Below are positions 8,136 through 44,456 of a DNA stretch of 64,000 nucleotides, in pieces. How positions within the stretch are numbered: the stretch's first letter is position 1; each line of letters begins with the position of its first letter. A program made the translations under genes and the position numbers. The DNA is taken from NCBI GenBank assembly GCA_018820855.1, contig JAHJNL010000022.1, positions 1 through 64,000 of the forward strand, given 5' to 3'. The DNA comes from Pseudomonadota bacterium. Its GTDB lineage: Bacteria; Desulfobacterota; Desulfobulbia; Desulfobulbales; Desulfocapsaceae. The notes beneath the pieces are model-generated. The model saw only the letters and a list, made by a program, of their open reading frames with translations. It had not been told where the DNA came from and ran no database searches.

Positions 8136-8783
8136 ATGAATTCACCGCGAACACCCTACTTGACCATTCTCTCCCTCATCTGTGTCCTGTCCCTCTTCTG
8201 TTCATGTGCCGGCGGGCCTTCCGGGCAACCTGCGCCAGCAAGCGAAGAACAAGCCAGTACAGCGGCAAAAAGTACTCCTGAAGGAGAAAAGGTAGAACTG
8301 GGGGCCATTGAAGAAATCCAGGCGACAACGGTGCTGAAAACGAACTATGACAATATCATTATCAGGAACTTTACAAGCAGTGCACAAATCCAGACCGACT
8401 ACCAGAAAAGTGTTCAGGATTGCAAAACGCACATCATTGATCAGTTGAAAAACAAAAAGGCCTATAAAAATGTGACGGACAGTAGCAAAAAGCTTTCCGG
8501 AAAAAGTGCTGTCGTGGATCTGAAGATTGTTGACATGCGTATTACAAGCGGAGCCGCCCGCTTCTGGGGCGGAGCCTTTGCCGGAAGTTCATTTATGGAT
8601 GTTCTGGTCGAAGTACGGAGCACGGGGAGCGACAAAATCCTTTACAAACAAATCCTTACCACATCAAACAGTGCCTGGGCCGCATCGTACAACGGCGGTT
8701 CCAGCGACACCAGCCTGCCCGCTGATTTCGGCACACTCATCGGTGAATATCTGTTTAAGCTTATTCCTGCGAGCAAGGGATAA
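8136..8783 (+). CDS. Putative lipoprotein, DUF4410-like
   Basis: A 215-residue exported protein of unknown function. The N-terminus is a signal sequence ending LFCSC with Cys24 as the likely lipidated residue, followed by a Pro/Ala/Ser linker to about residue 50. The mature domain has alternating strands and a Gly-rich segment, SGAARFWGGAFAGSSFMDV (about 130-148), then a repeated strand VLVEVRSTGSDKIL. This layout resembles DUF4410 lipoproteins, which are assigned here from memory rather than a search. Start chosen at the ATG after CGGAG. It stands alone between the efflux operon and a strong hairpin, so its context gives no functional hint. Confidence 0.8.
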   Translation: MNSPRTPYLTILSLICVLSLFCSCAGGPSGQPAPASEEQASTAAKSTPEGEKVELGAIEEIQATTVLKTNYDNIIIRNFTSSAQIQTDYQKSVQDCKTHIIDQLKNKKAYKNVTDSSKKLSGKSAVVDLKIVDMRITSGAARFWGGAFAGSSFMDVLVEVRSTGSDKILYKQILTTSNSAWAASYNGGSSDTSLPADFGTLIGEYLFKLIPASKG

Positions 8784-8801
8784 ATCCTGCATCTGACCTC
8801 A

Positions 8802-8840
8802 GTCTCTCTCTTGCTGCCTTACCCGCAGCAAGAGAGAGAC
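8802..8840. terminator. 16-bp perfect inverted repeat (bidirectional hairpin)
   Basis: GTCTCTCTCTTGCTGC at 8802-8817 pairs perfectly with its complement at 8825-8840 around a 7-base loop. It sits 18 bp past the lipoprotein stop and between convergent genes (lipoprotein and lysE). No T run follows on either strand, so it is not a classical intrinsic terminator. It may be an RNA 3' end-protecting structure or a Rho-dependent stop. Confidence 0.6.
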
Positions 8841-8979
8841 AAACGGCTCCCCCTCTCCTGACCGCTGCTCTTGCGCAGACAGCGTCCTGCTTGCACAGAG
8901 CAACTTTCTTGCATCTCCCCAATTCCGAATCAGCTGCTGAGATTCCTTTCATCAGAGCAAACCATTCCTTCATTAGTCT

Positions 8980-9588
8980 TCAGCCGGCAAAGAGAAGAAT
9001 CCCAAAAACTGTAAGCATGGCCCCAGACATCTTTTCAACAAAAAATACTCCTTTCCCCAGACGATTCTTTACTTTCCGATGACCTATCAAAAGAGCGACC
9101 CCACAGTCCCAGAAAAAAACAGCAGACATCATCCACAGACCGTAGAGGCAGCGCAGGGAAAGTGACGTAGCCGGGGAAACCATAGCTGTAAAAAGGGAGA
9201 GGTAAAAAATGACATTTTTCGGATTCAATATACCGGACATGAACCCGAGCAGAAACTGCTTTTTCATATTTCTTTCGTAAAGGATCGTGCCAGGCTCCTC
9301 GGTCATGAGAGGGCGCATCGGTGCCCTGAGGAGCATCACCCCGATGTAGATCAGGTATATTGCCCCAAGATATTTCAGGCCTGAAAAAAGGCCGGGCAGG
9401 TTACGGACCCCATCGCTGCTGAGTACGGCAATGAGCAGGTAGACGCCATTGGCCGCGGCTATCCCCCCGCAGACGGAAAAAGCATAGCGCAGGGGAAGGC
9501 GAAGAGCGGTCTGTAAAATAAGAAAAAAATCAGGCCCGGGACTGAGCAGGGCCAGGAAATGTGCACACGCGATCAGTATAAACTCCAT
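8980..9588 (-). CDS. LysE/RhtB family amino-acid exporter
   Basis: Inner-membrane exporter of the LysE/RhtB family, 202 residues, the usual length. Six hydrophobic segments are visible. The N-terminal family signature is clear: LLSPGPDFFLILQTAL at about 14-29, followed by the Gly-rich helix FSVCGGIAAANGVYLL. Members export amino acids or homoserine lactone-like compounds; the substrate is not deducible here. The ATG at 9588 follows AGGAGG. The gene lies 48 bp downstream of an AraC-type regulator on the same strand, a common arrangement in which the regulator senses the exported compound. Confidence 0.93.
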   Translation of the reverse strand: MEFILIACAHFLALLSPGPDFFLILQTALRLPLRYAFSVCGGIAAANGVYLLIAVLSSDGVRNLPGLFSGLKYLGAIYLIYIGVMLLRAPMRPLMTEEPGTILYERNMKKQFLLGFMSGILNPKNVIFYLSLFTAMVSPATSLSLRCLYGLWMMSAVFFWDCGVALLIGHRKVKNRLGKGVFFVEKMSGAMLTVFGILLFAG

Positions 9589-9636
9589 AGCATCCTCCTG
9601 TAATGGAGGTCTATAGTAGAGTTTTAGCGGGAGGAA

Positions 9637-10446
9637 TTATTGTATAAAATTGACACGGTATTGCTGAGGAGTCACGGTAGTCATTGCCTTGAAGGTGCGA
9701 TGCAGGTGACTCTGATCAAAGAATCCGCATTCCAGAGCGGTATCGCCTATATCTTTTCCCTGCTGCAGGAGCCTGCGGGCAAGCTCTATTCTGCAATTCA
9801 TGCGATAGGCATGCGGAGTAACCCCATACATGGCCTTGAACTGGCGCAGCAGGGTATAGAGATTTGCCTTGAGCTGCGAGGCAAAAGAATTCAGACTCAG
9901 ATCCTGCTCAAGATTTTCACTGAGAAGTATTTTGAACCGTTCAATCTGTTCAGGAGGCCTCTCATACCGCTGATGAGGTCGGCACGCCCTGGAAAAGATA
10001 TCTCCGAGCAGTTCTGCTACATTCTGTTCCTTTTCCAGAAGGTGCACCTGCTCATCCAGCAAACATTGCATGGCTGTCGTGTAACGGTGATAGAGGACAT
10101 CATCCAGCAAACGAATGCTTGTTACCGGCACAAAGCTGTCAATCGGCCACAGGCCCTTCTGAATCTGGAGACACCAATCAACCTCCAGATAAAGCATGTA
10201 GTAACTTCTTTGTCGACCGCCCTCAGAATTACAGGAATGGAGAGTGTCCGGGTTGATCAGGGCAAGGGCGCCGGGCGCCAGAGAGGCGCCCTTGCCCTGC
10301 ACCTGATAACGAACCTTTCCCGTCTCCACGGCTCCCACGCTGAAAGCCTGATGCAGATGCGGCTTAAAGCTTTTCTGACTGGACTGCGAATAGCGGGCCT
10401 CGACAAAAGGGAGCCTCCTGTCTTTAAAAAAATATTCTCTGTTCAC
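9637..10446 (-). CDS. AraC family transcriptional regulator
   Basis: Transcription factor of 269 residues. The N-terminal cupin-like sensing domain (about 25-150) has the typical FKPHLHQAFSVGAVETG start and PGALALINPDTLHSC strand pair. The C-terminal AraC double helix-turn-helix (about 165-268) includes LNSFASQLKANLYTLLRQFKAMYG and GDTALECGFFDQSHLHRTFK, ending in TPQQYR. The first codon is GTG; an in-frame stop lies three codons upstream, so there is no longer alternative, and no clear ribosome binding site is visible. It probably controls the downstream lysE gene and itself. Confidence 0.92.
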   Translation of the reverse strand: MNREYFFKDRRLPFVEARYSQSSQKSFKPHLHQAFSVGAVETGKVRYQVQGKGASLAPGALALINPDTLHSCNSEGGRQRSYYMLYLEVDWCLQIQKGLWPIDSFVPVTSIRLLDDVLYHRYTTAMQCLLDEQVHLLEKEQNVAELLGDIFSRACRPHQRYERPPEQIERFKILLSENLEQDLSLNSFASQLKANLYTLLRQFKAMYGVTPHAYRMNCRIELARRLLQQGKDIGDTALECGFFDQSHLHRTFKAMTTVTPQQYRVNFIQ

Positions 10447-10480
10447 GCTGCTTCACGCCATTCTTTTTCACTTTCGCAAC

Positions 10481-10495
10481 TTCTGAGTTTCAGAA
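10481..10495. promoter_or_regulatory. Palindrome upstream of araC-lysE
   Basis: TTCTGA-GTT-TCAGAA is a perfect inverted repeat 35 bp upstream of the araC start, in the only non-coding space between araC and lon. It is a plausible binding site for the AraC protein; this is inference from position only. Confidence 0.35.
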
Positions 10496-10551
10496 ACCTA
10501 TTTTTGAGTCGGAAACCAGCAATTGCCAAATTCAACTGAGCGGTCGTCCAC

Positions 10552-12969
10552 TTACCCTTTCAGAGCAGACAGCACTACTTTGGCCACCTGATCGTAATTA
10601 TGGGCAAAATGGACGGTTATGCCTTCCTTGATATGATCGGGCAGAGTCTCGAAATCTCCCTTGTTGGCCTCTGGCAGGATCAACTCTCTGATCTCATTTC
10701 GTTTGGCACCGATGACCTTTTCCTTAATCCCTCCCACAGGCAGGACTTTGCCGGTAAGAGTAAGTTCTCCGGTCATGGCCAGGTTCCGTTTCATGCGTCG
10801 GTTCATCCCCAGACTGAGCAGAGCCGAGGCCATGGTAACTCCGGCACTGGGGCCGTCTTTGGGGGTGGCCCCTTCCGGTACATGGAGATGAATGGCATGG
10901 GTCTGAAAAAAGTCCTCCTTGATTCCGTAATGGGCGGCGTGGGATTGCAGGAAGCTGTAAGCGATCTCCGAAGATTCCCGCATGACATCGCCAAGCTGTC
11001 CGGTCTGTTTAAAACCTCCCCCCTGCTTGCTGATGGCTGTCGCCTCCACTGAGAGAGTGACCCCACCCATGGGAGTCCAGGCAAGACCGGTGATAACTCC
11101 CACCCCTGTGAAAAGTGACTCCTTTCTGAAAAAAGGTTTCCCCAGATAGTCCTCCAGGTTTTTCGCTGTAACTGAGACCTTCAGCTCCGGATCTTCAAGA
11201 AGCTTGACCACCGTTTTGCGGACGATCTTGAGGAGATGCTTTTCCATTTTCCGCACTCCGGCCTCCCGTGCATAGCCATCAATAAGCAGCTTTAAGGCCG
11301 CATCACTGAGTTTGAGCTGACTCTTATTCAAACCGCCCTTTTCCAGAGCCTTGGGCCAGAGATGATTCCTGGCAATGGTAATTTTTTCTTCGGTGATGTA
11401 ACCGGAAAGCCTTATCATCTCCATACGATCCAGGAGCGGACCGGGGATGGTATCAAGCTGATTGGCCGTACAGATAAAGAGGACCTTGGAAAGATCCACC
11501 CGCAAATCCAGATAGTGATCCAGAAAATCACTATTCTGTTCAGGATCCAAGACCTCAAGGAGGGCAGAGGCAGGATCGCCATGGAAGGAGGCACCGATCT
11601 TGTCGATCTCGTCAAGCATGATTACCGGGTTGGCGGTCTTCACCTCTTTTAAGGCCTGGACAAACTTTCCAGGCATGGCCCCGATATAGGTGCGGCGATG
11701 GCCCTTGATCTCAGCCTCATCGCGCATACCGCCGAGGCTGAAACGATAAAATTTTCTCCCCATGGCCTCGGCCACAGAGCGGCCAATGGAAGTCTTGCCC
11801 ACCCCGGGAGGCCCCACCAGCAGCATGATGGATCCGGAAATCTCTTTTTTAAAGGAGCCCACCGCAAGAAATTCGATAATCCGCTCCTTCACATCTTCCA
11901 GGCCGTCATGATCCCGGTCCAGGATTCTTCGCGCTTCCTTGATTCCCAGTTTATCCTCAGAGTAAACGCCCCAGGGCACTGAACTCATCCAGTCCAGATA
12001 GTTTCTGGTCACGGCATATTCCTGGGAGCTCTTTTCCAGATAACTCAGCTTTTTCAATTCCTCTGCAATACGATTCGCCACCGACTCCGGCGGATGGCGA
12101 CCCTCCATGCGTTTTTCAAATTCATCAACATCGGCGCTGCGCTCATCTTTGGTGATGCCCAGCTCCTTCTGGATGGTTTTGAGTTGTTCACGAAGAAAAA
12201 ATTCCCGCTGCCGACTGTTGATCTTGGTGTTTACATCCTTACTGATCTCACCATGAAGCTTGCTGATCTGTACTTCCTTCTGCAGCAGAGGAAAAACACG
12301 CTGCATACGCTCAAGAATCGGGAGTGTCTCCAGGACCTGCTGCAACTCCTCTCCGCTGGCCGTAGTAAGTGTTGCTGCAAAATCGGTAAGGGGAGAAGGT
12401 TCGTTAGGCGAAAAGTACTGCAGGGCCTGCTTCAGCTCTTCTCCGTGCAGAGGGTTGGACTGAACCAGTTCCTTGACCGCCGAGATAATGGACAGGGCAT
12501 AAGCCTTAGTCTCTGTATCATCAAGCCCTACCTTCAGTTCTTCTTCGGCAAGATACTCTACCTCGACAATAAAGGGGACCTTGTTACTGAGCCAGCGTTT
12601 AATACGAAAACGCTGTATTCCCTGACAGAGAAAATGGATATTCGTGTCCTTCATGGTAGGTTTCAGGACCTTGCCCACACAGCCCACCGGGTAGAAATCA
12701 TCAGGGGCCGTCTCCTGTACAGGGATGTTACCTGCATACACCAGTCCCACGACCTTCTGTTCAGTCTCCCCGATCTTCTGAATAGTTTCCTTCCAGTACT
12801 CTCCACCAAGGACAATGGGTTGCACCTGACCGGGGAAAAAAGGTCTGCCGGAAATAGGAATCAGATACAAGTGTTGCGGAAGAACCTGATGGGGTAGGGT
12901 AATCTCGTTCTGCTGTCCACCCTCATCGACCATTTCTGCCTCTGTATGCGTTTCGTTTTTATCTGTCAT
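10552..12969 (-). CDS. lon: ATP-dependent protease Lon
   Basis: Cytoplasmic AAA+ serine protease that degrades misfolded and regulatory proteins, 805 residues, the full family length. Domains in order: LON substrate-binding domain (about 30-225) starting [24 protein letters not shown]; helical linker; AAA+ module with Walker A GPPGVGKT near residue 385 and Walker [10 protein letters not shown] near 450; C-terminal protease with GPSAGVTMA carrying the catalytic Ser near 706 and [10 protein letters not shown] carrying the catalytic Lys near 750. Start at ATG 12969 after a GAGGAG site. The N-terminal extension ([17 protein letters not shown]) is acidic and variable. It is monocistronic, convergent with nothing and read away from the phosphoesterase gene. 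Confidence 0.97.
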
Positions 12970-38991: not shown

Positions 38992-41900
38992 ATGGGTACA
39001 ACAACTAAAATCGTGTATGGCTGCCTGTTAGCTATATCAATCATTCTGCTGTTTCTTATATTTCAAATGCAGAAGAGTGCCCAGCTCACCTTGGATGTAG
39101 AACAGATAGAGCAATCTATTCACCAAAAAAATCAGGAATTGGCCGCAGTTCAGCAAAAGCTTGAAGCCACTGTTGCCGCGGTTGCAAATGCCGAGGCCAA
39201 GAGCACCGTCATCCCCAAACTCAAAGAAAATATCAAGGCTTCAGAAAAAGAGAAACTCGCTTACATACAGCAACTTGATGAACTGCAAGGACAATTAAAA
39301 AAGGCCGACAATCGACTTGCTGAGTTCGGCCGCATGCAGGGAGAATACAAACGCCAGCAAACCTTACTGGCAGAAACAGAAAAAGCCAAAAAGTCTGCCG
39401 AAATGCAGACAGCCCAAGCGGTTGCAGAGCTCAAGGGTGCAGAGAAGGCGCTCAGCCAACATGTAGATCGGATCAACCAGCTTGGTGCCACGCTTGAGCA
39501 GAAAGATCTGCTCGTCAAATCCTTTAAAGAAAAGCTGGAACAGACAGCAGAAGAGATGGATCTTCTAAAATCGACGATTTCAGATAATCAATTAAATCTC
39601 AATCTGGTTCTTGATGAACTTGACGGCAAAAATCAACTCGTCGAGCAACTCACCCTTAAAATTGAGCAAATCAGTGCTGCCATCCAAACGAAAGGGCATG
39701 CCCTCGGTGAGCTCATTGATGACAAGACAGCTATTGAAACTGAAATCCACGCCTTACTCGAAGCGACCGCCCCTGACAACAGCACAGACAAGGAAAATGA
39801 AATAACAACCTGTTATGTAGCCCTTGAGAAAAACAAGAATGAACTTCGTCTTGCCCATGAGGAGTTGCAGCAGCTGAAGGTTGCAAAAGAAACCCTCTTG
39901 CCCAGCGCTATTGCAGAAGTTAACGAGTTGAAGCTTATAAATGATAGCCTGCATACCACTATCAGGGAGCAGGATGTACTTATAGAAAATCTACGCAATG
40001 AAATCCAGGCCAAAGAAACACTGCTTGCCACAACCAAGGATGAACTGGTTACAATTCAGGCAAATAAACAGGCCACCGACAATGAAATCAACAGACTGCT
40101 TTCTATCGAGCAAAACAACCAGCAAGAACTGAATCAACTGAAAGCCAGCCTCTCTGCTAAAGAGAATGAACTCAGTGCATTAACAGAACAGGCCGAGGGA
40201 ATGTCTGCCCCCCTGACCGGAAAGATTACAGTACTTGAGCAACAATTGGCCGAAATAAGAGAACAAAACAGTGCATTAGTCAATGATCTCAAGAAAGCTG
40301 AGACAACCCTTGCTGTCCTCACGAAAGAAAATGAAACGTTGGGAACAGAGCTTGCGCCGGCACAATCCGCTCTTGAGGAAGCCCATACTAAAATCTCACA
40401 ACTGAGTGAGGCCCTGAAGGCTTCAGAAGCTGCATTGAATCAGGAAAAGAATGCCAGCCAGTCCCTTACCACCGAAATTGAACCTGTCAAACAGGCTCTT
40501 TCCCGGTCTGAAGAAAAATACAACACACTCCGAAATCAATACGAGGAACTAAAAAAACGACTGGCAACCCTGAACGAAGAGGGCCAACAACAGGCAAAAC
40601 AAATCAAATCCCTCCATGAACAATTGTCAGAGCAGGCAGGGAGTAAGGAAACAGCTCAGGCCGAACTGAGTGCAAAACTTGCGACCACGGAATCCTCTCT
40701 GCAAAAAGCCTTGGCAAATAATGTCCAGTCCGCCGAACAGACAATCTCTCTTGAGCAAGAACTTGACAAAGCAAAGGCCGAAATATCTGAGAAAGAAAAT
40801 ACTATTCAACAGTTAACGACTCAATCAACAGAAAACAGTGCCCAAATCACTGACCTGCAGAACCGTCTGGATCTTGCGACCACACGAAAAGCTGCCGCAG
40901 AAGACAGCACCACAGCTCAGGAGCAAGAGATTTCAGGACTCATGGCAGAGATTTCTGCAGCAAAAGCAGCTTCCGCAGAACAAGCAGCCGCGCTGCAGAC
41001 CACACAACAGCAAATCATACTGATCAGCAAAGAAAAAGAAAACCTCATGACAGAGCTTCAGAATGCAGTGCAGGCAAAAAATGAGTTAACTGAGCTGAAC
41101 AATACATTACAGGCCACGGCCACAGAACAATCCGAGAAAATGACAACTCAGCTTGCCGACTTGGAACAAAAGGCTGAAAAGGCCATCACGCTTGAAACAA
41201 AGACCCAGGACTTAGAAACCGCCCTTCAGGACAGCCAGAACAGGCTTGCTGCAAACCTCGAAAAACTTACAGCACTGGAGGCTACCCTAGCCTCTCTGCA
41301 GGCTGAGCGAGACCAATTCTTCCTGCACACCATTGACAGCGACAATGATGGTATATCCGACGCCAAAGACAAATGTGCCGATACAATCCAAGGAGCCGCT
41401 ATAGATGCAGTGGGCTGTGAGAAGGACAGCGATGGGGATGGCCTGGTTAATCGCCTTGACCTCTGTCCCGAAACGGCCCCAGGTTCGGAAATTGACAATA
41501 TAGGCTGTTCTGCAGAGCAGAGCACAATTGTCCTGGAAGGTATTAACTTCCAACTCGGCACTGCCAACCTGACAGAGGATGCCCAGACTGTGTTAAATGG
41601 GGCAGCAAAAATCCTGCAGAACCACCCTGACATCAAGATGGAAGTGGCCGGACACACAGACACGTTAGGGGAAGCTGAGGTTAATCTGCGGCTCTCCACT
41701 GCCCGTGCCCAGGCCGTGCTGAATTACCTTGTAAGCCAAGGAGTTGCTGAAAGCAACCTGCAGGCAGTGGGCTATGGTCCTAAGTATCCGATTGCGGAAA
41801 ACAATACTAACACCGGACGTGCCAAGAACCGACGGGTTGAACTGCGGAGGATCAAAGCAACTGCCGCCCAGGCCGAAGAGGAAGCAACTCCCGTGCAAGA

Positions 41901-41997
41901 AAGCACAGATGCTGCTGCCACCGAAGCACCGAGTGCCAGCGATGAAGCAGGCACTGAAGAGAGTGCGAGCGAGTCTGCACCGCCTCAGACTGACTAA
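38992..41997 (+). CDS. Membrane-anchored coiled-coil protein with TSP3 repeats and OmpA domain
   Basis: A 1001-residue cell-envelope protein. One N-terminal hydrophobic helix (about 7-25, uncleaved anchor or signal) is followed by about 740 residues of continuous Gln/Glu/Lys/Leu/Ala-rich coiled coil. Two thrombospondin type-3-like calcium repeats (DSDNDGISDAKDKC at 782 and DSDGDGLVNRLDLC near 816) then lead into an OmpA peptidoglycan-binding domain (about 847-955). That domain contains INFQLGTANLTEDAQ, VAGHTDTLGEAEVNLRLSTARAQAV and GRAKNRRVEL. A low-complexity acidic Ala/Ser/Glu tail closes it. It probably spans the periplasm from a membrane to peptidoglycan. ATG 38992 follows GGAGG. Followed by a hairpin at 42043-42072. 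No partner gene is adjacent. Confidence 0.88.
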   Translation: MGTTTKIVYGCLLAISIILLFLIFQMQKSAQLTLDVEQIEQSIHQKNQELAAVQQKLEATVAAVANAEAKSTVIPKLKENIKASEKEKLAYIQQLDELQGQLKKADNRLAEFGRMQGEYKRQQTLLAETEKAKKSAEMQTAQAVAELKGAEKALSQHVDRINQLGATLEQKDLLVKSFKEKLEQTAEEMDLLKSTISDNQLNLNLVLDELDGKNQLVEQLTLKIEQISAAIQTKGHALGELIDDKTAIETEIHALLEATAPDNSTDKENEITTCYVALEKNKNELRLAHEELQQLKVAKETLLPSAIAEVNELKLINDSLHTTIREQDVLIENLRNEIQAKETLLATTKDELVTIQANKQATDNEINRLLSIEQNNQQELNQLKASLSAKENELSALTEQAEGMSAPLTGKITVLEQQLAEIREQNSALVNDLKKAETTLAVLTKENETLGTELAPAQSALEEAHTKISQLSEALKASEAALNQEKNASQSLTTEIEPVKQALSRSEEKYNTLRNQYEELKKRLATLNEEGQQQAKQIKSLHEQLSEQAGSKETAQAELSAKLATTESSLQKALANNVQSAEQTISLEQELDKAKAEISEKENTIQQLTTQSTENSAQITDLQNRLDLATTRKAAAEDSTTAQEQEISGLMAEISAAKAASAEQAAALQTTQQQIILISKEKENLMTELQNAVQAKNELTELNNTLQATATEQSEKMTTQLADLEQKAEKAITLETKTQDLETALQDSQNRLAANLEKLTALEATLASLQAERDQFFLHTIDSDNDGISDAKDKCADTIQGAAIDAVGCEKDSDGDGLVNRLDLCPETAPGSEIDNIGCSAEQSTIVLEGINFQLGTANLTEDAQTVLNGAAKILQNHPDIKMEVAGHTDTLGEAEVNLRLSTARAQAVLNYLVSQGVAESNLQAVGYGPKYPIAENNTNTGRAKNRRVELRRIKATAAQAEEEATPVQESTDAAATEAPSASDEAGTEESASESAPPQTD

Positions 41998-42042
41998 GAG
42001 CACCAGCCAGAACGTTACTGGCATAAGACTTCCATTCTTTTT

Positions 42043-42072
42043 GCCTGACAGGTTGCACCAGACCTGTCAGGC
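42043..42072 (+). terminator. Hairpin downstream of the OmpA gene
   Basis: GCCTGACAGGT and its exact complement form an 11-bp stem with an 8-base loop, 46 bp after the stop codon. A T run (T6) comes only about 20 bases later, so the terminator is imperfect. Confidence 0.65.
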
Positions 42073-42378
42073 TCAGCATTACACCCTGCCTTTTTTACAA
42101 TACCATATTGTCAAAGCCAAAAGAGCGCCCAGTAACAGGCCAGTTTTACTAAGAAACCACCAGTTCTATCCAAGGGAAAATTGACATTCCCTTTATCAAA
42201 TACTTATCACTCTGCACGTATACCATCCGTGAACATCTTTTTCTCGACCCCCTTTATTTCATCGAAAAGTATCTGCATACTGCCTGTCCGAACAGCCTTA
42301 ACTCTCTATGTGTTCATTTTTTGTTAGAATGATATTGACTCGTGAACCAACTCGGCCTGGCAACTAGCGGAAAAAAAA

Positions 42379-42417
42379 CCTCCTGGGCAACGAATTTGAT
42401 ATTCATTGGCCAGGAGG
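42379..42417 (-). terminator. Intrinsic terminator of the small-protein cluster
   Basis: A 17-position stem with two mismatches around TTGAT, followed on the minus strand by eight T residues. It closes the transcript of the small membrane protein genes, 38 bp beyond the last stop codon. Confidence 0.85.
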
Positions 42418-42454
42418 CATGAAGGAAAAATGAATCTTTCGAACCTTGAGCAGG

Positions 42455-42754
42455 TTATTTTATTACGGTAGCCTTTCGAGGAGCCTTGTTTACATATTTA
42501 AAGAAAACCGGGAAGGCCACGAAGAATGCAACACATATCAGATATTCGATCCCTTTAATGTGTGTATAATAATCAACCAAGGTATGCAGGGGTTTTACCA
42601 TCCCGATAGCCACCATATACTGACTGGCAAGCTCACTTACAGACCAGTTAACGTGGTAAAGGGCACCGGTAAAGGCAGCTGCTACCCAGCAAAACATCAT
42701 TGCACCTGCAGCCAGAATAATCCTGTTTACTGTTTTTGAAGTATTTTCAGCCAT
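42455..42754 (-). CDS. Unknown two-helix membrane protein, last gene of small-protein cluster
   Basis: A 99-residue membrane protein that I do not recognise. Two hydrophobic segments lie at about 11-31 (IILAAGAMMFCWVAAAFTGAL) and 67-86 (GIEYLICVAFFVAFPVFFKY). They flank a central loop with His, Trp and Tyr residues (YHVNWSVSELASQY and KPLHTLVDYYTHIKG), several of which could bind a cofactor or metal. The C-terminus is basic. ATG at 42754 is preferred to 42757 because GGAG then has proper spacing. It lies 39 bp after the third paralogue of the cluster and before a terminator, so it is very likely co-transcribed with the three paralogues. Confidence 0.75.
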   Translation of the reverse strand: MAENTSKTVNRIILAAGAMMFCWVAAAFTGALYHVNWSVSELASQYMVAIGMVKPLHTLVDYYTHIKGIEYLICVAFFVAFPVFFKYVNKAPRKATVIK

Positions 42755-42793
42755 CATGTTCTCCTTAACAATTTACTAGTCATATTAATAAGT

Positions 42794-42988
42794 TCAGCCG
42801 ATCATTGCACTCAAGCAGCTTTGCATTAGTCCCACAGGCCCAGTACTTAACAGTGCGCTTGCGATGCAGGCTGCACCCCAAAGGCCAACAAAGGCCGCCA
42901 TGACAATTCCCACTCCAAGTGCGAAATGAGAGGTTTCGTATCCAATATCAACCTGAGTTCGTGCTGTAGTCTGTGTGGTTGTAGTCAT
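42794..42988 (-). CDS. Small membrane protein, tandem paralogue 3
   Basis: A 64-residue protein and the most divergent member of a local family of three. It shares with the other two a Thr/Gln-rich start (MTTTTQTTARTQ), the block DIGYETSHFALGVGI at about 14-28, one membrane helix (about 24-47) and a conserved W-x3-C-x-A-S inside the helix (WGAACIAS). The C-terminal part (TGPVGLMQSCLSAMIG) has lost the DNG motif of its siblings. AGGAT at six bases supports the start. Function unknown. Confidence 0.75.
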   Translation of the reverse strand: MTTTTQTTARTQVDIGYETSHFALGVGIVMAAFVGLWGAACIASALLSTGPVGLMQSCLSAMIG

Positions 42989-43040
42989 GGCGGTATCCTG
43001 TTTTTTTTCTCTTTTACAAGGGGGTGTTTGCTTTCAAATA

Positions 43041-43238
43041 TCAGATTCCGGTTATGGCACCGAATAACCCTCTAACAACTCCGCTAAGTCCGTTATCGAG
43101 AATCATACTTGCCATGCAGATAACGGCCCATACTCCTATCATTGCCGCAGTTGCGACTCCTACACCAAGAGTAAACTTAGAAGTTTCGTATCCGACATCG
43201 GCCTGAGTTTTGGTTATAGTCTGTGTATTAGTAGTCAT
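43041..43238 (-). CDS. Small membrane protein, tandem paralogue 2
   Basis: A 65-residue protein with the local family signature: MTTNTQ start, ADVGYETSKFTLGVGV, a single membrane helix at about 24-46 with WAVICMAS, and the C-terminal segment LDNGLSGVVRGLFGAITG. The helix is flanked by a soluble polar N-terminus of about 22 residues and an amphipathic Gly-rich tail. GGAGG at seven bases precedes the ATG. It has no signal peptide. Function unknown. Confidence 0.78.
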   Translation of the reverse strand: MTTNTQTITKTQADVGYETSKFTLGVGVATAAMIGVWAVICMASMILDNGLSGVVRGLFGAITGI

Positions 43239-43292
43239 GGTATCCTCCGTATCTATATTCTCTGTCCTGAAGAGAGCATCTGATTTCCGGGA

Positions 43293-43490
43293 TTAACTTC
43301 CAACAATGGCGCCGACAAGACCTCTCATAACGCCACCGAGTCCGTTGTCGAGAAGCGTACTTGCCATGCAGACAACGGCCCATATGCCAATCATGGCCGC
43401 GACAGTGACTCCTACACCGAGAGCGAACTGAGAAGTTTCACATCCAACATCGACCTGACTTCTGGTTGTAACTTGTGTATTGGTAGTCAT
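43293..43490 (-). CDS. Small membrane protein, tandem paralogue 1
   Basis: A 65-residue protein, the first gene of the cluster. It carries MTTNTQ, VDVGCETSQFALGVGV (Cys in place of the Tyr found in its siblings), one membrane helix with WAVVCMAS, and LDNGLGGVMRGLVGAIVG. The ATG at 43490 is chosen over one four codons upstream because GGAGG lies at five bases and the protein then matches paralogue 2 in length exactly. A sigma-54-like promoter lies 100 bp upstream. Confidence 0.78.
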   Translation of the reverse strand: MTTNTQVTTRSQVDVGCETSQFALGVGVTVAAMIGIWAVVCMASTLLDNGLGGVMRGLVGAIVGS

Positions 43491-43589
43491 AGCGTCCTCC
43501 ATATCCTTTTGATTTTACATCTTTTTTTTATTTCCTTACCTTTTGCTTTGCACATACGATGCCATCTTGATGACGCCCCCAAAACAAAC

Positions 43590-43605
43590 TGCAAGATTTC
43601 TCCCA
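43590..43605 (-). promoter_or_regulatory. Candidate sigma-54 (RpoN) promoter
   Basis: On the minus strand the sequence TGGGAGAAATCTTGCA fits the -24/-12 pattern: GG, ten bases, GC, with the TTGCA part exact and TGG present. Transcription would start near 43580, about 90 bases before the first small-protein gene. Pattern match by eye only. Confidence 0.45.
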
Positions 43606-43645
43606 TCTAGCTGATATCAAAAGTGATAGCATATACGGTCACCTC

Positions 43646-43704
43646 ATACCACATCGCCACACTTGTGCGGCATGAACGTGTAGCGACAATCAGATATGTG
43701 GTAT
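43646..43704. repeat. Nested inverted repeat upstream of the sigma-54-like promoter
   Basis: ATACCACAT (43646-43654) pairs perfectly with ATGTGGTAT (43696-43704). Inside the left part a smaller hairpin, GCCACAC-TT-GTGCGGC (one A-C mismatch), is nested. It lies 40-110 bp upstream of the proposed sigma-54 promoter, the usual place for enhancer-binding-protein sites; it could also be a structured RNA. Confidence 0.5.
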
Positions 43705-44240
43705 TAGGCCGAAAGAGTGTAGTTACTCTCCGACAGAAGTGTTGCAGCTTTTGCGGATAGGTATGCCAATACAAAACTCATGGAAAATTAATTAGATCCG
43801 GGATGAAGTGCAGAATGAATATTCTGACATTTGAGTGAGATTGCGACACAGGGTTGTATAAGACAGGGGAGGACGACAGACACAAAACAAATTATTCCGC
43901 TATTGAGGATGACGAATGCAACAAAAGCGTTGCGTTAACAGACTTTTTTAGGCAACAGACTTGACTGACGCATTATACTGATATGTCTGATGCCATATGT
44001 GCGCGCCATCACTGAAACGATCGACGCCAGCAGAGAAGTGGCGATCTTTTTCATGGGCACTGCGAAAAAAATCATGGTGGAGACTATGCTGCCCACTCGA
44101 CAAGCACCAAGGGCGACACTATAATAACTCTTCATCCTTGTCTTTATTTTATAAACACCAGCATATCGTCACTGTTTTACGAAACAGACTCATCCATGCT
44201 GCAATGTTTTTTTTAAAACTTGTCTAGGAGGACAATACTT

Positions 44241-44456
44241 ATGATCGTAACAGACTGGATCCATACCATTGCCGGATTTTTCATCCTGTTCAGCATGGCC
44301 CTGGGGGTAGACTGCGGCAGCAATCCCCTTTTCGTCCATAAATACTGGCTTTTTTTGACTGCCTTCGTGGGTCTGAATCTTTTCCAGTTCGGCTTCACAA
44401 AATTTTGCCCATTAGGCCTGATCTTAAAAGCTCTGGGTGTACCGGAAAGCAGATAA
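44241..44456 (+). CDS. DUF2892 (YgaP-like) membrane protein
   Basis: A 71-residue inner-membrane protein with two helices (about 8-23 and 36-52). It matches the DUF2892 family by a first helix preceded by [12 protein letters not shown], a second helix followed by [17 protein letters not shown], and the Cys in that FxKFCP motif. In other proteins this domain is fused to rhodanese (YgaP); here it stands alone. ATG 44241 follows AGGAGG at nine bases. It is a single gene closed by a terminator. In stand-alone form its function is unknown, though an association with sulfur-transfer proteins is common. Confidence 0.88.

Follow-up and report, generated by a model that had tools for sequence, protein, structure and literature searches.

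Single short membrane helices that work together with FtsH or with a respiratory complex are known from SpoVM, MgtR and CydX. Among respiratory systems, the Hmc complex of Desulfovibrio (HmcABCDEF) contains the subunit HmcC, for which, according to the accessible part of the source, energy conservation through a redox loop is suggested and the direction is called uncertain (PMC6303296). In cable bacteria, the accessible part of another report describes TMH1, a small one-helix protein whose role is not known, together with a DsrO/DsrP-like tetrahaem module (PMC13047784). Our search of the open-access literature retrieved no paper on an FtsH-linked module of this kind. Here, we describe S and T, an uncharacterised family of small membrane proteins that occurs in many genomes of one order of sulfur bacteria, and compare the loci in which they occur to these systems.

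The window, i.e. the whole stretch of 64,000 nucleotides that was analysed, belongs to a genome assembly of 4.82 Mb in 106 contigs. It contains a minus-strand operon in which the genes of three single-helix proteins (S1, S2 and S3) are followed by the gene of a two-helix protein (T) and by a terminator at the 3' end (Table 1). The first-pass annotation had reported three tandem genes for proteins of 64-65 residues plus a two-helix gene, a shared core with the motif W-x3-C-x-A-S, a ribosome binding site for each gene and a strong terminator after T. All of this was recovered: the four open reading frames were located on the minus strand, the core and the motif are present in the S proteins and each gene has its own ribosome binding site, albeit a weaker one for S3. 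The terminator reached -25.6 kcal/mol with a z-score of -6.1, and 0 of 200 shuffled sequences were as good, but it is absent from the list of a simple terminator scan. The intergenic gaps from S1 to T, as calculated from the coordinates, are 54, 52 and 36 nt. T comprises 100 residues when read from the first ATG and 99 from the second, at which its paralogues begin. A search of positions 41900-44300 against Rfam gave nothing at E<=0.1.

Table 1 Features of the S/T operon in the window.
Feature	Position	Strand	Description
S1, 65 aa, single-helix	43293..43490	-	G-x-W-x3-C core; GGAGG ahead of start
S2, 65 aa, single-helix	43041..43238	-	71% identical to S1; GGAGG ahead of start
S3, 64 aa, single-helix	42794..42988	-	53% identical to S1; weaker AGGA ahead of start
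T, 99/100 aa, two-helix	42455..42757	-	S-type N-terminal helix and HmcD-like C-terminal helix; AAGGAG ahead of start
Intrinsic terminator	42370..42418	-	Stem 42378-42418, then T8
Sigma-54 promoter TGGCATCGTATGTGCA (predicted)	43549..43564	-	58 nt ahead of S1 start
Candidate activator-site cluster	43656..43745	-	GCAACAC, GCTACAC, palindrome GCCGCACAAGTGTGGC at 43656-43671

S and T are real genes. In 11 comparisons by the NG86 method, some of them with dS near saturation, T had a dN/dS of 0.06-0.11 and S one of 0.14-0.43, with S3 as the faster-evolving copy (up to 0.43). The first-pass annotation had considered itself refuted if homologues or purifying selection were lacking; instead, homologues occur across the order and dN/dS lies between 0.06 and 0.43. 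Spurious open reading frames are ruled out by this purifying selection, a syntenic orthologue and a conserved promoter.

In an alignment of 34 S proteins (profile A3), Cys41, Gly50 and Gly64 are invariant (34/34), and Trp37 and Gly35 are conserved in 33/34 and 32/34 proteins, respectively. This alignment left out part of the S places found in the phylum sample, namely those with in-frame stops (G119, G011, G275 and G049) and one short C22 frame (G261), as well as places for which no sequence was retrieved. When the 34 proteins were scanned against Pfam, no family scored above its gathering score; each family listed matched one member, with a best E-value of 0.016. The NCBIfam scan of S covered the three S proteins of the window, and a sequence search of the PDB with S gave nothing at E<=1. 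The earlier statement that no family could be recognised thus holds for S, for which neither Pfam above cut-off nor the PDB at E<=1 gave a match, but not quite for T, which is HmcD-like.

The first-pass annotation had treated S and T as unlike proteins, a view that the profile comparison overturned by placing an S-type helix inside T. With an hhalign probability of 95%, the S profile matched the T profile (A4, nine proteins) over the N-terminal half of the latter. In a rerun, the score of this alignment was 45.1 and all controls stayed below 20: reversed alignments scored 12.0 and 10.8, the best NrfD segment reached 17.0, and the highest score among 100 column shuffles was 19.5 in one set and 19.8 in another. 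Mere hydrophobicity as the cause of the likeness is ruled out by this difference (45.1 versus at most 19.8). T has no Cys at the position aligned to the Cys of S. The C-terminal helix of T matched HmcD (NF045712) in 8 of the 9 family members with a best E-value of 5e-5, below the curated cut-off; for T of the window, the match comprised residues 58-85 only, with 20.5 bits (E 3.3e-4) compared to an equivalog cut-off of 34 bits. HmcD is a single helix of about 38 residues, whereas T has 99/100 residues and an additional S-type helix, and T is therefore not classified as HmcD. As judged from these profiles, T is modular, with an N-terminal helix homologous to S and a C-terminal helix resembling HmcD. 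AlphaFold models, which are of low confidence (pLDDT 61 and pTM 0.33 for T; pLDDT 68 and pTM 0.35 for S), depict S as a long plus a short helix and T as the same with a further long helix. The PDB sequence search with T retrieved only transporters at E-values of 0.5-0.7.

In the window's own genome, S1 as query had 12 matches at E<=1, itself included, and 13 S genes were counted from the loci: three in the window (contig C104), two on C90, one on C49, five more at 73-75 kb of C49 and two on C58. The T query had three matches including itself, i.e. two paralogues on C90 and C49 with 80-83% identity. The T-containing sets are thus SSST in the window, SST on C90 and ST on C49; the former two are orphan sets, and the latter is part of the one full locus of this genome (L013). 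There, the genes of an FtsH, a cytochrome with five CxxCH motifs (Cyt5), a Tat FeS protein, an NrfD-like protein and a kinase-like membrane protein are followed by S and T, and the FtsH gene is preceded by genes for a sensor kinase and a sigma-54 response regulator and by an open reading frame resembling an IS1595 transposase. The FtsH, with AAA and M41 domains and HExxH, scored 741.5 bits against TIGR01241 (cut-off 600). The FeS and NrfD-like proteins are homologous to HmcB and HmcC at sub-equivalog level (398.5 bits for a cut-off of 420 and 363.5 bits for a cut-off of 550, respectively), and Cyt5 scored 38.7 bits against HmcA (NF045713, cut-off 400). No protein of this genome scored above the cut-off for HmcC, and no candidate open reading frame for HmcE or HmcF lies between FtsH and T in this locus.

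The second C49 locus and C58/C62 combine an FtsH with c7-type trihaem-domain and 9-CxxCH cytochromes with NrfD, or with a NapC-like cytochrome. One end of C58 (L015) carries a kinase, a sigma-54 regulator, two S genes and an FtsH broken off by the contig end, and one end of C62 (L202) carries an FtsH, a membrane sensor, a NapC-like cytochrome, an FeS protein and an NrfD; judging by these contig ends, C58 and C62 probably adjoin. A few kb from the SST set on C90, at about 14200-17300 of L012, lie genes for beta and a subunits, which we take to be part of a second ATP synthase operon. The IS1595-transposase-like open reading frame (PF12762 and PF12760; minus strand of C49, L201:527-1441) stands directly ahead of FtsH within the operon, 45 nt behind a predicted sigma-54 promoter, and such a frame precedes FtsH in 22 of the 78 named loci described below, 39 of which contain an FtsH. 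The first acidic motif that we would expect for an IS1595 DDE domain is not conserved in it, and its sequence suggests an exapted, immobile transposase.

Among 117 genomes sampled from the order, S was found in 79 and T in 58, with both in 55, S only in 24 and T only in 3 (lists matched by eye). Matches to S reach 14 in some genomes, counts that may include T frames because S and T are homologous. In the phylum sample of 297 genomes, the T profile matched 22, many of them with the HmcD-like half only, and the first S profile matched 14, four with in-frame stops. A scan of named genomes with one T peptide pattern, restricted to the best 80 of 107 relatives, yielded 78 loci and thereby favours close relatives of T and under-samples S-only loci. 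Those labelled below the level of class come from Desulfobulbales-type genera or families, the rest being labelled only as Proteobacteria, Pseudomonadota or delta. A few locus counts include repeats, since L067/L107, L070/L161 and L071/L138 are identical and L102/L123 overlap on one contig, where both show the same FtsH gene. The order that recurs in these loci is sensor kinase, sigma-54 regulator, FtsH, Cyt5, FeS protein, NrfD, kinase-like protein, one or several S and T. The 89 S/T sets comprise 58 ST, 15 SST, 8 T, 3 TS, 2 S, 2 STST and 1 SSTTT. The expectation of the first-pass annotation that the copy number of S varies while T stays single is thus borne out by most sets, including SSST of the window, but not by the STST, SSTTT, T, TS and S sets.

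Thirty-one sets were well flanked, i.e. with 8.5 kb or more of upstream and 3 kb or more of downstream sequence; 23 of these lie beside FtsH and NrfD, 2 beside part of the core and 6 beside none of FtsH, Cyt5, FeS protein and NrfD. The syntenic orthologue of the window operon was found in a Desulfocapsa sp. MAG (L088), where nine flanking proteins are common to both (67-95% identity over the aligned parts) and the set is SST, one S replacing S1 and S2. Some loci deviate from the usual composition: L069 contains a full T but no S, FtsH or core genes, and L081 and L085 have HmcD-only T-like frames and an HmcBC-type core without FtsH or S. In L072 and L078, S genes stand beside 7-CxxCH cytochromes and a membrane protein, presumably b561-like, without FtsH; this is possibly a third kind of redox partner.

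The predicted sigma-54 promoter of the window has GG and GC at -24 and -12 with correct spacing. The pattern TGGCAY-N6-TGCW was found ahead of 59 of the 75 sets with enough upstream sequence, the other 16 having none, compared to 162 of 5000 stretches drawn at random from the same loci (3.2%) and to 0/75 each for the opposite strand and for the reversed pattern. The distance to the following ATG, with a Shine-Dalgarno-like sequence, was 50-64 nt for 40 of 54 sites. A first scan covered 21 S gene starts and located a site with a score of 19.7 or higher no more than 350 nt away for 13 of them; 3 of the 8 starts lacking such a site belong to downstream genes of a set. Genome-wide, the pattern had 73 matches, compared to 17 for the reversed control. 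GCNACAC-type elements occur upstream in the window, on C90 and C49, at the FtsH operon and in L088; the strict upstream motif, although 17 times enriched, occurs in no more than 21 of the 62 promoter regions. Seven near-palindromic sites exist genome-wide, two of which lie ahead of the promoters of the window operon and of the FtsH operon, respectively; as the reversed control also gave seven, their positions rather than their number are informative. Judging by these sites, the window operon appears to be an orphan set of a sigma-54 regulon that includes the FtsH operon. The accessible text of a sigma-54 regulome paper (PMC4641369) contains neither Hmc, FtsH nor the motif strings.

The FtsH proteins were compared in two trees. 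In a tree of 44 rows, restricted to proteins of 540-760 residues, all 41 S/T-linked rows were separated by a branch with 100/99 support from the C60 and C53 copies of the window's own genome, and HE[ASLV]GH was present in all 44 rows. In a wider tree with the FtsHs of eight more genomes, from which rows below 540 residues were excluded, thereby dropping the S-linked L227 and L233, 9 of 9 S-linked rows fell into one group of 11 rows (99/100), apart from 18 other rows. The two remaining rows of this group are L216, beside a Cyt5-FeS pair, and L230, neither of which has an S in the 3 kb examined. Among 21 S loci, the window included, an FtsH of this kind is present in 12, of which 8 lack T; 1 contains another M41 AAA protease and 8 contain none in the available stretch, which in some cases is ended by a contig end. 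In the locus with the other protease (L079 of G145), two S genes at 8384-8830 stand beside an 816-residue M41-type AAA protease at 8940-11387 that falls outside the usual FtsH group. The trees indicate that the S-linked FtsHs form one supported group, including those with a NapC-like redox partner.

We consider it somewhat more probable than the opposite that the products of the operon are accessory membrane subunits of an Hmc-like oxidoreductase between quinone and periplasmic cytochrome c, which is linked to FtsH and controlled by sigma-54. Its core, i.e. the five-haem cytochrome, the HmcB-like FeS protein and the HmcC/NrfD-like quinone subunit, would be encoded elsewhere together with a dedicated FtsH and the sensor-kinase/sigma-54 regulator pair. 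T may attach to the NrfD/FeS core by means of its HmcD-like helix. The S proteins, as further copies of the N-terminal helix of T, may surround the complex and connect it with the dedicated FtsH, which would act in its assembly or turnover. Upon activation of the regulator, the core operon and its satellite sets, that of the window included, would be made together, so that the window operon would alter how many accessory helices there are or of which type they are. We infer the physical association, the direction of electron flow, the role of the FtsH and the regulator bound at the shared sites. Of the first-pass suggestions, accessory subunits of a membrane complex is the one that fits best, with T being HmcD-like and S/T sets lying beside HmcB/HmcC-like genes at many loci; the connection with FtsH and sigma-54 could not have been recognised from the window itself. 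The window operon is not adjacent to such a complex, so that the link rests on homology and promoter features. Counted against the subunit reading are the T genomes without S (3/58), L069, the promoterless sets (16/75) and the limited occurrence of the strict motif (21/62). In addition, the occurrence of S without T beside NapC-like and 7-haem/b561-like partners and the S-only genomes (24/117) indicate that S is not restricted to the Hmc-like core.

The NapC-like partners favour a role of S at the protease. In this alternative, the S proteins would act on the dedicated FtsH as adaptors or inhibitors or would be its substrates, roles that small membrane peptides have for other FtsHs; T would couple them to the Hmc-like complex, and the dosage of S would set the turnover of respiratory complexes. 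S tracks one FtsH group whatever the redox partner (12/21 S loci, 8 of these without T; 9/9 S-linked FtsHs in the 11-row group), and L081 and L085, with their HmcBC-type core, have neither FtsH nor S. We nevertheless hold this alternative to be somewhat unlikely, given the orphan S sets without FtsH alongside, the FtsHs of L216 and L230 with no S in the 3 kb examined and the fusion of an S-type helix to a respiratory-subunit helix in T, which favours a structural role. A broader proposal, distinctly doubtful at present, is that S represents a new class of one-helix Cys/Trp modules recruiting a dedicated FtsH subfamily to several quinone/multihaem-cytochrome complexes, one such module having been fused to an HmcD-type helix to give T, and the S/T sets being multiplied in genomes as exchangeable components of a single sigma-54 regulon; if true, regulated proteolysis would be built into anaerobic respiratory complexes, and the in-membrane Cys would be a possible redox sensor. 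The orphan sets (6/31 well-flanked), the invariant Cys41 (34/34) and the up to 14 S matches per genome, possibly including T frames, would also suit a self-standing membrane assembly such as a stress peptide, a channel or a Cys redox sensor that shares only its regulation with the respiratory locus, but core genes alongside 23 of the 31 well-flanked sets and the HmcD-like helix of T make this improbable. Translational noise or decaying duplicates without function would fit the recent S1/S2 duplication and the faster evolution of S3 (dN/dS up to 0.43); we regard this as extremely improbable in view of dN/dS below 0.5 in 11 of 11 comparisons (0.06-0.11 for T), the order-wide spread, the conserved promoter spacing and the syntenic orthologue.

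The oxidoreductase proposed here resembles Hmc in its HmcB- and HmcC-like proteins, a multihaem cytochrome slightly similar to HmcA (38.7 bits) and the HmcD-like helix in T. It differs in that HmcA has 16 haems, compared to the five CxxCH motifs of the cytochrome found here, and in that the proteins similar to HmcB, HmcC and HmcD all stay below the NCBIfam equivalog cut-offs; the Hmc complex proper is ruled out by these curated cut-offs and by the haem number of HmcA. A further difference from Hmc is that the S/T locus includes S proteins, a sigma-54 regulator and an FtsH, none of which, to our knowledge, is known from the hmc operon. On the basis of its sequences, the module would work like a quinone-cytochrome module of the Hmc/NrfD type and is not a member of Hmc. 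The TMH1-DsrOhPh-tetrahaem locus of cable bacteria, likened here by description, shares with the S locus a small one-helix protein beside a redox module and a cytochrome, in the same order of bacteria; in the accessible part of the report, TMH1 is called unique to cable bacteria and its NrfD protein is placed near DsrP, and the term FtsH is absent from the main text (PMC13047784). A respiratory module whose genes come with those of a dedicated FtsH, of a two-component sigma-54 switch and of a variable number of interchangeable one-helix proteins would amount to a concrete case of built-in turnover control of anaerobic electron-transfer complexes. It offers testable roles for a family of small proteins found in 79 of the 117 genomes sampled from this order, which drives the sulfur cycle, and likewise for an Hmc-like complex whose relatives are of unsettled function and direction, as the accessible part of the source describes for HmcC (PMC6303296). 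Compared by description only to SpoVM, MgtR and CydX, S differs in being multicopy and in having an invariant Cys and a near-invariant Trp. What is new here is the modularity of T, the conserved locus ending in S and T, the FtsH group and the sigma-54 promoters.
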